Below are positions 1 through 6,715 of a stretch of 33,956 nt of DNA, piece after piece. Each line of letters begins with the position of its first letter. The first letter of the stretch is position 1. The position numbers were made by a program, and so were the translations under genes. The notes under the pieces are model-generated. The model saw only the letters and a program-made list of their open reading frames with translations. It searched no databases and was not told the DNA's origin. Source of the stretch: an uncultured Lactobacillus sp. (GTDB taxonomy: Bacteria; Bacillota; Bacilli; Lactobacillales; Lactobacillaceae); assembly GCA_947641735.1 (NCBI GenBank), contig CANRQR010000014.1, forward strand, positions 1 to 33,956, in the 5' to 3' direction.

Positions 1-476
1 AACAAGAAGAAATAACTAAAAAAATTGAAGAACAAGATTATCTTCAAGATCTTGAGACAATTAAATATAGCGAAATAACCAAGACAAAATTAAAAAATAT
101 TGCAACTAAAATGATTAATGAAGCTGTGCAGGCTTTTAAACATGACTCCCTCATTCAAACGCAGCTGGCCATTAGTGGAAGAAGACCAATGACTTTTGCC
201 CTTGAAAGTAATATCATTAATCTTCCATTTGCTAACTACAAAAAAATTAGTAATTTTTGTAATAATGAAGATGAGTATGAAGTAAACATCTATTTTGAAA
301 CTATTTCAGAATATGTAAATGTTTCTCACTTCCGAATCGATATTCTGGGGTCAAGTGATGAAATTGTAGCTGATCCAGAAAAGTATAGTGCATTACTAGT
401 AAAAGCAATTGAAGAAAAAATTGAAGTAATTCGCAACTATCAAAAACCCGAAACAAAAACTAAGAAAACAAAATAA
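1..476 (+). CDS. C-terminal part of an unrecognised protein (partial)
   Basis: The reading frame is open from the window edge (first full codon at base 3) to the TAA at 474-476, so the ATG at 111 is internal and the true start lies outside. The visible part, about 157 residues, is charged and Lys/Glu rich. It has a predicted helical start, a mixed alpha/beta middle and a lysine-rich tail (KPETKTKKTK). There is no signal peptide or membrane segment in the visible part. I do not recognise a family and assign no function. Its stop codon sits inside the bidirectional terminator shared with the convergent nrdF-like gene. Confidence is for a real coding frame, not for identity. Confidence 0.75.
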   Translation, partial: QEEITKKIEEQDYLQDLETIKYSEITKTKLKNIATKMINEAVQAFKHDSLIQTQLAISGRRPMTFALESNIINLPFANYKKISNFCNNEDEYEVNIYFETISEYVNVSHFRIDILGSSDEIVADPEKYSALLVKAIEEKIEVIRNYQKPETKTKKTK

Positions 477-510
477 GGAGCTAGCCTTTATGCTAACTCC
501 TTATTTTGTT
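467..510. terminator. Bidirectional intrinsic terminator
   Basis: A 19-bp stem (AACAAAATAAGGAGCTAGC against its complement, one mismatch) with a short loop lies between two convergent genes and contains both stop codons. It is flanked by T-rich sequence on each strand. Confidence 0.8.
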
Positions 511-1442
511 ATTTCACGCATTTTTAGGATGGGATGGGCATTAGTGTAAAAGAAGAAATCCTCAATCATTGCACTTTCCATCAGACCAGTGGTCAAAATT
601 GGATCTAAAGTCTCAACATTTTCTGGATATTTTGGCTCTTGTCCTAAATTCATAAGAGCTTTATTTAATGTGTAATGAATGTAATGCTCGACCTTATCTT
701 CAAGATCAGTATTCTGATACAAGAGTTTAATATGGCTAAGCTCATTGTCATATAAATTATCACATAGATCATATACCCAATCATGCACTTTTTTCTGTTC
801 TTTCTTAGAAAGTTTGAAAAAATCTCGCCGAAACTTAATTCCGGTATAAATGCCATTTAAAGTTGTAATTCTAAGGGCATATTTAATCAATTCTGCCGTT
901 CTTGGTAATTTATGTTGTCCGAATAAATATAACGGGCCAAAAAATGATGAATGATAAAGGCCAGTTGATAGAAAAACGTGAGCAGCTTTTTTCTGAATAG
1001 TATTTCCTGATTGATATACTGTATTTAGAAGTTTCATCTTTTTTTGTAGATAAGGATTTTGGTTTGCCCATTCATAGGCATCTTCTTGTTTTTTAGAATC
1101 AGAAAATTCAGCTAATACATAGCTATAGGCCTTATTATTAATGGATTCTAGATATTGAAGTGCATTATATACAGCAACTTCTTCAGAATTTTCAGCATCC
1201 TTTTTTATTTCGGATAGAGCTACTTTCATTTGGAGAGTAGAAGAGAGCGTTAAAGAGCCAAAACTGTGCAAAATCACAGTTTGTTCGTTTTTAGGGAGAT
1301 GAAGAAACTCTTTCTGATCTTTATAAATTGGAACACGACGAGGTTCGTAAACAATATCATTTAATCTCGCCCAAGCAGAACGATCTACTTGCTCTTCTAC
1401 AGTGTTCCAGTTGTTTGCTTTATAATAAGGTTTTTTATTCAT
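501..1442 (-). CDS. nrdF: NrdF-like ribonucleotide reductase beta subunit lacking metal ligands
   Basis: A homologue of class Ib ribonucleotide reductase beta (R2), which normally holds a dimetal-tyrosyl radical that starts ribonucleotide reduction in NrdE. Against E. coli NrdF as I recall it, the proteins align without gaps over about 190 residues with a constant offset. Counting from an upstream GTG at 1460, the ligand positions read D67 to Ser74, E98 to Glu105 (kept), H101 to Asn108, E158 to Ser165, E192 to Thr199 and H195 to Asn202. The radical tyrosine (Y105) is kept as Tyr112. The usual acidic, aromatic C-terminal tail that docks on NrdE is absent; the protein ends ILKMREITK. The ATG at 1442 is preferred: it fits the family N terminus and overlaps the end of nrdI, suggesting translational coupling. 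The GTG at 1460 would add six residues. The open, full-length frame argues against a decayed pseudogene. Catalysis, if any, cannot be by the standard dimetal route. Confidence 0.85.
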   Translation of the reverse strand: MNKKPYYKANNWNTVEEQVDRSAWARLNDIVYEPRRVPIYKDQKEFLHLPKNEQTVILHSFGSLTLSSTLQMKVALSEIKKDAENSEEVAVYNALQYLESINNKAYSYVLAEFSDSKKQEDAYEWANQNPYLQKKMKLLNTVYQSGNTIQKKAAHVFLSTGLYHSSFFGPLYLFGQHKLPRTAELIKYALRITTLNGIYTGIKFRRDFFKLSKKEQKKVHDWVYDLCDNLYDNELSHIKLLYQNTDLEDKVEHYIHYTLNKALMNLGQEPKYPENVETLDPILTTGLMESAMIEDFFFYTNAHPILKMREITK

Positions 1443-1896
1443 TTTTCTGCCTGAAGTCACTTAAGAAACTAATATTGCTAAGAGCTGGATTTTGAATTGG
1501 TAAATCTTTTTGTGCACCTTTTTCTTTTTTTCGAGCTTCCATAACAATTTGACGAACATTTTTGACGTCAGTCGAATTGCCACTAAGTTCTAGTAAGTAA
1601 AGAATAGGAACATGTAATGTAACCGAGATCTTTTTTGCTGTTTGGCCAAAAAGATCGTTAAAGTTACGATTACCACATCCAATTAATCCTAAAAGATTTT
1701 TTTTATTATCTTTATATGTTAAAAAATCAACAACGGAATCCATCATAAAATCTTGATACGAAGGTAAAATCAAAATGTATTTATCATTCATTTGATATTG
1801 AGGATGAGCATCTTCAATTCGATGTGCATCAAGACCCGTTTTATTTATGAATCGTTGCGTTTGTCCTGTAATTGTATAAAAAGCTATTTTTACCAT
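1435..1896 (-). CDS. nrdI: NrdI flavodoxin-like protein
   Basis: NrdI is a small FMN protein that supplies oxidant to activate the NrdF cofactor in class Ib ribonucleotide reductases. Visible signatures are the N-terminal phosphate loop (YTITGQTQRF, residues 7-16), the GCGNRNF loop around residue 74, and LLELSGNSTDVKNV, matching the family FEL-G-T-x-DVENV region. The loop after PSY is short, as in Bacillus-type NrdI. A Lys-rich C-terminal extension of roughly 30 residues goes beyond the usual NrdI length. The stop overlaps the start of the nrdF-like gene. No nrdE or nrdH is visible here, so the partner alpha subunit must be elsewhere or absent. The start is ATG at 1896, with a weak AGG ribosome site. 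Confidence 0.85.
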   Translation of the reverse strand: MVKIAFYTITGQTQRFINKTGLDAHRIEDAHPQYQMNDKYILILPSYQDFMMDSVVDFLTYKDNKKNLLGLIGCGNRNFNDLFGQTAKKISVTLHVPILYLLELSGNSTDVKNVRQIVMEARKKEKGAQKDLPIQNPALSNISFLSDFRQKNE

Positions 1897-2038: not shown

Positions 2039-2665
2039 ATGACACTTGGATGGAATATTTTAGGTATTTTGGCCTGGTTAATTCTGGTTTTATATTTAAT
2101 TTTTATTGTACAAAATATTCGAAAACGTCACTTAATAATGATTGTAAAAGATCGCAAACGCTTTGAGTGGAAAACTACCTTGTTAGATATTTTAGAAGTT
2201 TTACTTCTTTTATGCGGTGCGATCTATATGTTTAGCATCACTTTATTTTACAATCCTGATTTAGAAAATAGACAGGTTTTATCTAGTAAAATTGAATATC
2301 AACCATTAATTTTAACAGCGGGCAATAAACGCTCATACTATATCACCGCTAAATCTGACAATAAAAAGACTCCAATTCAGACATATACTTTTTATAGTAA
2401 CGGAAACAGAGTAACTGTTACGAGTAATTATGCTACAATTTCTGACGGAAAAAATCCAATGTCTGTTCAAGCGGGAGCTATTCCTTATTCATCTAAGCAA
2501 TTAGTTCAAGCAGATGCACGCTATCAAAATGCATATGTGGCTACTTATACAGCTACATATAAGAAAAACTGGCAGAATGGTTTAAGAATGCATGCCGGTA
2601 AGACAGCAGCTAGGTACTACTTAATTAGAGTACCTGACCGTACTTTTGTAAGAGAATTAAAATAA
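2039..2665 (+). CDS. Lactobacillar membrane protein (LVIS_2131-like)
   Basis: A 208-residue protein with two N-terminal membrane helices (about 7-25 and 48-68) separated by a basic cytoplasmic loop (KRHLIMIVKDRKRFEWK). It then has an extracytoplasmic domain of about 135 residues rich in Tyr, Thr and Ser. The layout and the N-terminal pattern GWNILGILAWLILVLYLIF resemble the LVIS_2131 family of uncharacterised lactobacillar proteins; this is recalled and not searched. The start is well supported by an AATGGAGG ribosome site seven bases upstream. The gene stands alone between divergent nrdI and the convergent O-antigen-ligase-like gene. Function unknown; topology suggests a role at the cell surface. 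Confidence 0.8.
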   Translation: MTLGWNILGILAWLILVLYLIFIVQNIRKRHLIMIVKDRKRFEWKTTLLDILEVLLLLCGAIYMFSITLFYNPDLENRQVLSSKIEYQPLILTAGNKRSYYITAKSDNKKTPIQTYTFYSNGNRVTVTSNYATISDGKNPMSVQAGAIPYSSKQLVQADARYQNAYVATYTATYKKNWQNGLRMHAGKTAARYYLIRVPDRTFVRELK

Positions 2666-5449: not shown

Positions 5450-6715
5450 TTGACTATCAAATCTAAAGTAATCAAATTTACAACTGCTGCTTCATTCGCT
5501 GTTGCAGGTATCGCAACTTTAAGTGCAGCTAAATTAAACTCATTATCTTTTAACGGTACTGCTCAAGCTTCTACTCTTCAAGCACCTGCAAAAGAAATTG
5601 GTGTCGTAAAGGTAAACTCTAAGACTGGTGAAAGTATTGCTGTTTGGAACAGCTACGAAGATGGTAAGCAACAAACTGGTAAGTACTTACCATACCAATC
5701 AAGCTGGAAGACATACAAGAAAGTTAAGACTGTTAAGGGTGAAACTTGGTACAACTTAGGTGGAAACCAATGGATTTCATCTGACAATGTTGAAGAAGAA
5801 GCTCCAATCGCAGTTACTGCTGATTTATCTGCAGTTGCTACTGCTGTAAGTCAAGTTCCAGCAGCAAACGTTAACAACGCACAACAAGCAACTGCTCCAG
5901 TAGCACAACCTGCACAACAAGCAGCTACTACTACTGCTAACACTGTATCTGTTGCAACTACCGCACCTGTACAAACTAATACTGCAGCAAACGTACAACA
6001 AGCAGCTACTACTACTGCTAACACTGCATCTGTTGCAACTACTGCACCTGTACAAACTAATACTGCAGCAAACGTACAACAAGCAACTGCTTCAGTAGCA
6101 CAACCTGCACAACAAACTGCAACTACTACTGCTTCAGCTAACACTCAAGCTGCTCCAGCACAAACTAACTACGTACAAACTAATACTGCAGCAACTACTA
6201 AGCAAGCATCTACTGCTCCAACTCAATCAAACACTACTTACACTGCACCTGCACAAAATAACACTGCTGCTAAGCCTGCACAACAACAAGCTCAACCAAC
6301 TCAACAAGCTTCAAGTCAAGCAGCAACTACTCAAACTGCTAAGCCACAAGCTTCAACTCAATCAAACAGCAGCACTGCACAAACTGTAGTTAGCGCAGCA
6401 CAATCACAAATTGGTAAGCCTTACGTATGGGGTGCAACTGGTCCTAACGCATACGACTGCTCTGGTTTAGTTCAATACGCATACAGCCAAGCTGGTAAGA
6501 ACGTTGGACGTACTACTTACCAACAAGCTGGTGCAGGTCAACACATTTCTGTTAGCCAAGCACAAGCTGGTGATATCTTAATGTGGGGTGACTACCACGA
6601 TGCTATTTACGTAGGTAACAACCAATACGTACACGCACCACAACCAGGTCAAAACGTAACTCAAGCTTCTATCTCAAGTTACTTCATGCCAGATTACGCA
6701 ATCCGTGTAAACTAA
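5450..6715 (+). CDS. Secreted NlpC/P60 peptidoglycan endopeptidase
   Basis: Cleaves the stem peptides of peptidoglycan outside the cell. A signal peptide covers about residues 1-41 (basic start, hydrophobic core, A-Q-A-S cleavage region). An SH3b-like or SLAP-like wall-binding module (about 45-115, ending WYNLGGNQWISSDNVE) follows. Next comes an Ala/Thr/Gln/Pro linker of about 190 residues containing a duplicated 27-residue unit. The C-terminal NlpC/P60 domain (about 310-421) has a catalytic triad in Cys337 (YDCSGLVQ), His383 and His395 (QYVHAP). The start is TTG at 5450, eight bases after TATGGAGGA. A WalR box and promoter precede it. Codons are the biased, abundant-protein type, suggesting high expression. 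It is followed by its own terminator. Confidence 0.93.
   Translation: MTIKSKVIKFTTAASFAVAGIATLSAAKLNSLSFNGTAQASTLQAPAKEIGVVKVNSKTGESIAVWNSYEDGKQQTGKYLPYQSSWKTYKKVKTVKGETWYNLGGNQWISSDNVEEEAPIAVTADLSAVATAVSQVPAANVNNAQQATAPVAQPAQQAATTTANTVSVATTAPVQTNTAANVQQAATTTANTASVATTAPVQTNTAANVQQATASVAQPAQQTATTTASANTQAAPAQTNYVQTNTAATTKQASTAPTQSNTTYTAPAQNNTAAKPAQQQAQPTQQASSQAATTQTAKPQASTQSNSSTAQTVVSAAQSQIGKPYVWGATGPNAYDCSGLVQYAYSQAGKNVGRTTYQQAGAGQHISVSQAQAGDILMWGDYHDAIYVGNNQYVHAPQPGQNVTQASISSYFMPDYAIRVN
5921..6082 (+). repeat. Two tandem 81-bp units inside the NlpC/P60 linker
   Basis: Two near-identical 81-bp units (5921-6001 and 6002-6082), each encoding 27 residues of the AATTTANT...NVQQ type. They are flanked by two copies of a 33-bp block (5888-5920 and 6083-6115). 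This looks like a recent in-frame duplication and a likely site of length variation between strains. Confidence 0.9.

Follow-up and report, generated by a model that had tools for sequence, protein, structure and literature searches.

A Lactobacillus NrdF homologue without its dimetal site is kept beside NrdI and is very probably not a reductase subunit

What defines an R2 protein is its metal site (DOPA in class Ie) together with its service to NrdE. The question raised by the locus described here is what an NrdF homologue is kept for when its metal site has been lost and its gene still adjoins nrdI. The locus lies in a stretch of 33,956 nucleotides (the window) from a Lactobacillus genome near L. 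johnsonii, the assembly of which (G000) is 72% complete. The NrdF-like protein is 98% identical to its counterpart in ATCC 33200 and identical to that of another genome of the genus (G089, 99% complete, one contig). The elements of the locus are the following, with positions given in the window.

501..1442, minus strand: nrdF-like gene, 313 aa, from the ATG at 1442, stop included (504-1442 coding without the stop), encoding an R2 homologue without dimetal site.
1435..1896, minus strand: nrdI, 153 aa, PF07972 match with E 2.6e-32, GQT and GNRNF flavodoxin motifs kept, extra C-terminal tail NPALSNISFLSDFRQKNE.
467..510, minus strand: terminator-like hairpin of 19 pairs with a T-rich tail, where the nrdF-like gene ends.
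3..476, plus strand: flanking gene F3, conserved and convergent, adjoining the gene at 2039 in most species without the pair.
2039..2665, plus strand: flanking gene F4 (LVIS_2131 family), conserved and divergent from nrdI.

The nrdF-like reading frame is genuine (501-1442 on the minus strand, stop present, 313 aa). Its product matches the Pfam family PF00268 with an E-value of 6.7e-50, and its best solved relative is 4n83, titled S. sanguinis NrdF (E 1.1e-71). nrdI is located directly upstream, head to tail and with an 8-base overlap, and the hairpin closes this two-gene unit, both neighbours of which are on the plus strand. In the whole stretch, three terminator-like sites were found vs 0.8 expected; the promoter scan returned 8 sites vs 7.2 expected and carries no information. 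Elsewhere in the window, an 81-base tandem repeat (5914-6085, 2.1 copies, 97% matches) is present inside ORF 5450-6715, relatives of which occupy the same place across the genus.

A PF00268 search of 75 Lactobacillus genomes, one per species, gave matches in 29 of them. The 31 matching proteins comprise 29 members of the NrdF-like family, one per carrier, and two class Ie proteins of the VPK type. In a MAFFT alignment with E. coli NrdF from MG1655 and with class Ib NrdFs taken from further families of the order, the window protein carries S68, E99, N102, (Y106), S159, T193 and N196 at the positions of E. coli D67, E98, H101, (Y105), E158, E192 and H195. The first-pass annotation, which had read Ser, Glu, Asn, Ser, Thr and Asn at the ligand positions beside a kept tyrosine, is thereby borne out. 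The codons concerned, and four further positions that are invariant in the family, are listed here.

1239..1241, minus strand: Ser68 codon, at E. coli NrdF ligand Asp67.
1146..1148, minus strand: Glu99 codon, at ligand Glu98; kept in 29/29.
1134..1139, minus strand: Asn102 and Asn103 codons, at ligand His101; Asn103 is family-invariant (Ala102 in class Ib).
1125..1127, minus strand: Tyr106 codon, at radical Tyr105; kept in 29/29.
966..968, minus strand: Ser159 codon, at ligand Glu158; E in 15, S in 12 and N in 2 family rows.
951..956, minus strand: Tyr163-His164, family-invariant; Phe162-Tyr163 in E. coli NrdF, Phe208-Tyr209 in NrdB.
876..878, minus strand: Ala189 codon, family-invariant; Ile188 in NrdF, Ile234 in NrdB.
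855..866, minus strand: Thr193 to Asn196, at ligands Glu192 and His195.

The window protein thus retains one of the six dimetal ligands (D, E, H, E, E, H), and each of the 29 family rows, one per carrier genome, retains one or two. D67, H101, E192 and H195 are each found in none of these rows, E158 in 15, and E98 and Y105 in all 29. Written as seven-position strings, the rows read SENYSTN (11), SEAYETN (7), SEAYETS (6), SENYNTS (2), SEAYETG (1), SEAYESN (1) and SENYSTS (1). All seven positions are intact in 21 of 21 rows of the class Ib comparison (20 plus E. coli). The tally leaves aside L022-L024, class I proteins from other families of the order that read DEHYEEH, and the R2 of G049 (L025). 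When E. coli NrdB was added to the alignment, it gave the same ligand columns under its usual numbering. Misalignment was rejected as an explanation, as E. coli NrdF and NrdB, the Lactobacillales class Ib rows and the VPK rows all point to the same columns. None of the alignments made restored a ligand, and the orthologues of related species show the same four losses in 29 of 29 rows.

The family is monophyletic with a support of 100/100, its sister group being the 20 class Ib rows from Lactobacillales. The stem of the clade is long (2.54 changes per column), and the program warned that long branches come together where the VPK rows and the NrdF-like family are joined. Identity to class Ib proteins of the Lactobacillales type is 36-37%. 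With profile A1 at an E-value of 1e-96, run against overlapping samples of 395 genomes of the order, 397 of the taxonomic family and 398 of the phylum, the NrdF-like family appeared only in Lactobacillus among the matches listed. Three other matches, from two genera of the taxonomic family and scoring 324-328 bits, were set aside as ordinary class Ib proteins by their translations. The short patterns of the tool used for viral contigs brought up no relative of the window protein or of family alignment A1. Among 479 plasmid and 419 phage records, only relatives below 60% identity were seen (best 8 matches of each). A mobile or phage origin was rejected on these grounds, and because the locus is syntenic across the genus.

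This synteny is extensive. F3 and F4 stand beside the pair in all 18 regions compared, some of which are near-copies, and F5 and F6 in 17 of the 18, the other region ending at a contig edge. In the 28 carrier regions in which all four genes were found, the orientations agree throughout. Regions were read in 39 of the 46 non-carriers, 38 of which showed both flanks. The flanks adjoin (within 80 bases or overlapping) in 31 of the 38, and both genes of the pair are absent there; in the remaining seven, the flanking frames are 320-1961 bases apart. A search for remnants in eight regions (these seven and that of G084, which is without F3) found one in G062 only, a remnant of nrdI. On a tree of the four flanking genes, covering 68 of the 75 genomes, the pair changes state 5 times. 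Given the synteny of the flanks, their adjoining in non-carriers and the scarcity of remnants, the pair sits at one site and is lost mostly as a unit. One gain followed by several losses is the simple, though not proven, reading. The trait is widespread in the genus and old, and the pair is dispensable for the genus as a whole, since it was lost in several lineages.

Repeated loss could also mean that the gene is decaying, as the relic of a class Ib operon that was lost. The broken nrdI of three of the 29 carriers, the frame break near the end of one nrdF-like gene (G030), and three distant pairs with a dN/dS of 0.25-0.40, at near-saturated dS, can be read in the same way. Selection argues strongly in the other direction. 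By the method of Nei and Gojobori, on pairs with a dS of 0.1-1.5, the median dN/dS of the nrdF-like gene is 0.069 (37 pairs), which resembles the medians of three flanking genes (0.050 in 23 pairs, 0.069 in 13 and 0.059 in 25). nrdI, with a median of 0.106 (47 pairs), is slightly less constrained. In a separate set (28 rows, 41 pairs, dS below 1.5), dN/dS ranges from 0 to 0.155 in 13 pairs with a dS of up to 1.10; the other 28 pairs, among which the three distant ones, are near saturation. The gene is therefore neither decaying nor a recent arrival, and recent decay was rejected on the basis of dN/dS and of the new invariant residues. Since these residues and a new conserved ending have been acquired as well, the relic explanation can be given almost no credence. 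The argument made at first reading, that an intact frame and a coupled nrdI speak for a protein that is kept, withstands this analysis: the frame is open, nrdI adjoins it, and dN/dS is far from 1. The sequences show that purifying selection has kept the ferritin-like NrdF body, Tyr106, Glu99 and, at the mouth of the channel described below, the Lys/Asn pair.

What has been lost besides the ligands is the end of the protein that serves NrdE.

504..560, minus strand: family-specific C-terminal ending DFFFYTNAHPILKMREITK, replacing the NrdE-engaging tail.

The tyrosine motif of GNGYL type that follows DFF is present in 23 of 23 class Ib, VPK and E. coli rows and in none of the 29 family rows. Its place is taken by DFF(F/Y)YxNx(H/N) plus a few residues in 28 of 29 family rows vs 0 of 23 comparison rows; the sole exception in the family, G030, has its frame break just before. 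According to a passage of PMC8463856, the conserved tail tyrosine is essential for ribonucleotide reductase activity in class I. NrdE itself was found in two of the 29 carriers (G020 and G072, full match, E around 1e-158). It was not found in the other 27, among which G000 (72% complete) and G006 (79%), nor in G089, the 99% complete genome with the protein identical to that of the window. Weaker PF02867 matches fall on frames of about 750 aa that coincide in place with the NrdJ model. Besides the pair without metal site, both NrdE genomes have a separate set in which nrdI and nrdE adjoin a class Ie nrdF of the VPK type (G020, L021; G072, L079).

Over the 29 carriers, the reductase classes number two for NrdE, 13 for NrdJ and 25 for NrdD. 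The protein might accordingly be conceived as a subunit that regulates another reductase, NrdD or NrdJ, or donates a radical to it, and NrdD is indeed present in 25 of 29 carriers vs 15 of 46 non-carriers (Fisher p 5e-6, without correction for kinship). On the species tree, however, this link is not seen: starred branches yield 4 independent pairs (all branches, 5), with a median p of 1, the pairs being too few for significance either way. Moreover, G002 is without NrdD, the searches of G005 and G009 (both 99% complete) and of G000 (72%) detected no NrdE, NrdD or NrdJ, and in carriers assembled as a single contig the nrdD and nrdJ places listed are far from the pair. Service to NrdD or NrdJ is thus quite improbable. 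Since two 99% complete carriers are without any detected reductase class, a regulatory pseudo-subunit, which was one of the two roles proposed at the outset, is disfavoured. The initial interpretation holds only in part: the extreme loss of the dinuclear site, the selected intact frame and the coupled nrdI stand, and the reductase pseudo-subunit is improbable. NrdE, NrdD and NrdJ were likewise not detected in 15 non-carrier genomes, some of them incomplete. These, as well as G005 and G009, may live on salvaged deoxynucleosides.

The same elements determine where the family can be classified. With class Ib it shares the radical tyrosine (29/29) and the adjacent NrdI (29/29); it is without the dimetal ligands, the Tyr tail (0/29) and, apart from two of 29 carriers that both have a separate class Ie NrdF, a cognate NrdE. 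A passage of PMC11846895 names two versions of R2e, QSK and VPK. Class Ie has VPK or QSK at the three glutamates and keeps the Asp and both His, whereas the 29 rows read S, E, (N/A), Y, (E/S/N), (T/S), (N/S/G). The two VPK rows of the genus read DVHYPKH. The loss had been described as more extreme than that of class Ie, and rightly so, as the Asp and both His, which the VPK rows keep, are gone too. Because the tested defining features of both classes fail, the family is filed in neither Ib nor Ie. A metal-free radical subunit like that of class Ie, serving ribonucleotide reduction, would account for the lost ligands, the NrdI partner and the kept tyrosine, and class Ie entries stand among the NrdF matches of the fold search reported below. 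It is nevertheless very improbable: the rows are neither VPK nor QSK and have lost the Asp and both His, 27 of 29 genomes yielded no NrdE, the Tyr tail is missing, and where NrdE does occur, in two genomes, it stands next to an NrdF of the VPK type. Altogether, the NrdF-like protein is very probably kept beside NrdI in a function other than that of a reductase subunit.

Which function this could be depends on what has become of the core. Asn103, Tyr163, His164 and Ala189 are invariant in all 29 rows, at positions that are Ala102, Phe162, Tyr163 and Ile188 in E. coli NrdF, and core residue Asp191 (Asp237 of NrdB) is missing from the family. Twelve core positions together hold about 280 cubic angstrom less side chain vs class Ib; random sets of 12 columns average -13 (sd 82), and 3 of 1000 are as low. 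The core is remodelled, with small residues at the former ligand positions. In the F208Y mutant of E. coli R2, the new tyrosine, at the position matching family Tyr163, is reportedly hydroxylated to DOPA. The invariance of Tyr106 makes a new type of metal-free radical protein possible. One metal is conceivable in the NrdF-like protein because His164 is new and invariant, so that it might be an enzyme with a single metal or another small cofactor; the ligands would be His164, Glu99 and, in half of the family, Glu159. His164 is next to the old site, and Glu99 (29/29) and Glu159 (15/29) could complete such a set. However, 14 of 29 rows have Ser or Asn at position 159, which leaves His164 and Glu99 as the obvious ligands and makes this explanation improbable.

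The other constant element is NrdI, the gene of which adjoins the nrdF-like gene in 29 of 29 carriers, with an open frame in 26. It is broken in G012, G031 and G064, in which the nrdF-like frame is open. NrdI may be dispensable in some carriers, or the breaks may be sequencing errors; unless they are, a strict dependence on NrdI is weakened. In an alignment of 26 family NrdIs, the three broken ones being left out, GQT, DFMMDS and GNRNF are each kept in at least 25 rows. The loop near the flavin differs from that of E. coli, and a short loop is also found in one other Lactobacillales NrdI (G040). A C-terminal extension of the type PKELxGNISFLSDY(R) (window 1435-1500) is present in most family rows, some of which are incomplete as extracted, and absent from four comparison NrdIs. 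Through it, NrdI may touch its NrdF-like partner at a new place. Most genomes of the genus also encode a second, weak NrdI-like flavodoxin of about 150 aa (e.g., G000:C1:58422-58727), often below the Pfam cut-off.

In one species, L. taiwanensis DSM 21401 (L032:4548-5942, G095), nrdI and the nrdF-like gene lie in one frame of 465 codons. The metagenome-assembled genome G006, with an NrdF-like protein identical to that of L. taiwanensis, has two genes, and the A-run at the junction differs in length. The single frame may thus be a natural fusion or a sequencing slip in the A-run. An AlphaFold2 model of the fused frame, built from nine sequences, has a mean pLDDT of 62.5; means of ten-residue blocks are 55-92 over most of the NrdF half, below 40 at its end and around 35-63 in NrdI. 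These values are too low for usable geometry of an NrdI/NrdF-like complex. In Foldseek, the best matches of the model are NrdFs, the first being 4n83 (E 1.4e-14, TM by target 0.85). The Pfam match of the window protein (6.7e-50) and the Foldseek result for the L. taiwanensis model agree in predicting an R2 ferritin-like fold for the NrdF-like protein.

On the NrdF side, the way by which NrdI would reach the core is partly preserved.

648..662, minus strand: Lys261 to Asn265, the kept mouth of the channel from NrdI to the metal site (Lys260/Asn264 in E. coli).

In B. cereus R2b-NrdI, as a passage of PMC9462851 describes, Lys263 and Asn267 line the channel from FMN to the metals. The equivalents at the channel mouth are kept in 28 (Lys261) and 27 (Asn265) of the 29 family rows. 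Channel residue Tyr166 of B. cereus R2b corresponds to His164 in the family, and several flavin-covering positions differ from class Ib. Several of the nine R2b positions named as facing NrdI or the channel are changed: position 23 has Ala for Thr, 164 has His for Tyr, 195 has Phe or Leu for Val, and 198 has Ile or Met for Thr. Because several NrdI-facing positions changed with the family, docking of NrdI is an assumption. If it does dock, the protein could be a scaffold without chemistry of its own that binds NrdI and strains its flavin, making the pair an oxygen reductase, a source of superoxide or peroxide, or a dedicated electron shuttle. Binding of R2b strains the FMN of NrdI and favours oxygen reduction, as stated in a passage of PMC9462851, and the NrdI-facing residues A23 (29/29), R26 (29/29) and K261 (28/29) are kept in the family. 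A scaffold would not need Glu99, Asn103, Tyr106, Tyr163 and His164, which by homology are in the core, in all 29 rows, and nrdI is broken in three of 29 carriers with an open nrdF-like gene. The scaffold is for these reasons unlikely, while still deserving more weight than a subunit or a mononuclear enzyme.

The reading that we favour gives the core a function. An R2 (NrdF) subunit would have left ribonucleotide reduction and become the lasting partner of the flavoprotein NrdI. NrdI would still dock, and its FMN would send electrons, superoxide or peroxide through the old channel, so that body and helper would act as R2-NrdI of class Ib/Ie does up to the delivery of an oxidant into the core. 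The destination would be a hollowed pocket at the former metal site, lined by Ser68, Glu99, Asn103, Tyr106, Tyr163, His164 and Ala189, all of them invariant in the family. A bound small molecule could be oxidized there, or Tyr106 and Tyr163 themselves, perhaps by hydroxylation. The proposal thus amounts to a two-component NrdI/NrdF-like flavin redox system independent of ribonucleotide reductase. Taken as a full mechanism, an NrdI-fed, NrdE-independent redox protein with a hollowed pocket has a chance that we place a little below even. The more specific version, a flavin-fed, dimetal-free and reductase-free R2/NrdI descendant in which superoxide or peroxide from NrdI enters a core with two tyrosines and a histidine, is more tentative still.

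Retention of an R2 body and NrdI through much of the history of the genus, without dimetal site and mostly without NrdE, suggests another use for the couple. The family is a natural system for asking what the superoxide chemistry of NrdI does without metals. Furthermore, annotation and models of dNTP metabolism of L. johnsonii and its relatives may count an aerobic reductase that does not exist. If the flavin-fed reading is true, a new kind of enzyme has been made from parts of ribonucleotide reductase, in 29 of 75 sampled Lactobacillus species. In the open-licence PMC literature, screened by title and start of abstract, no description of a metal-site-less NrdF family was found, subscription papers being largely outside this scope.

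Among known systems, class Ib NrdF with NrdI (S. sanguinis 4n83, E. coli 3n39) has in common with the family the fold, the radical tyrosine, Glu98, the nrdI gene and the Lys260/Asn264 channel mouth. The family differs by being without the dinuclear ligand set, the Tyr tail and usually NrdE, and by its remodelled core. Class Ie R2 (VPK in S. pyogenes, A. urinae and M. florum; QSK in Gardnerella/Bifidobacterium vaginale) is likewise an R2 with NrdI and without the full ligand set, as a passage of PMC11846895 indicates. It substitutes the three Glu, keeps the Asp and both His and uses NrdE and DOPA, whereas the family loses other positions and is mostly without NrdE. In NCBIfam, the window protein exceeds the cut-off of NF007183 (PRK09614.1-2), 'ribonucleotide-diphosphate reductase subunit beta' (389 vs 320 bits), so that databases already group it under this name. 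The name implies a reductase activity for which the family does not have the parts. R2-like ligand-binding oxidase (R2lox) is an R2 relative that works without a reductase; it keeps its dinuclear metal site and is not known to have an NrdI. The family resembles R2lox in its probable independence of the reductase, and is set apart from it by the loss of the dinuclear site and by the NrdI at its side.
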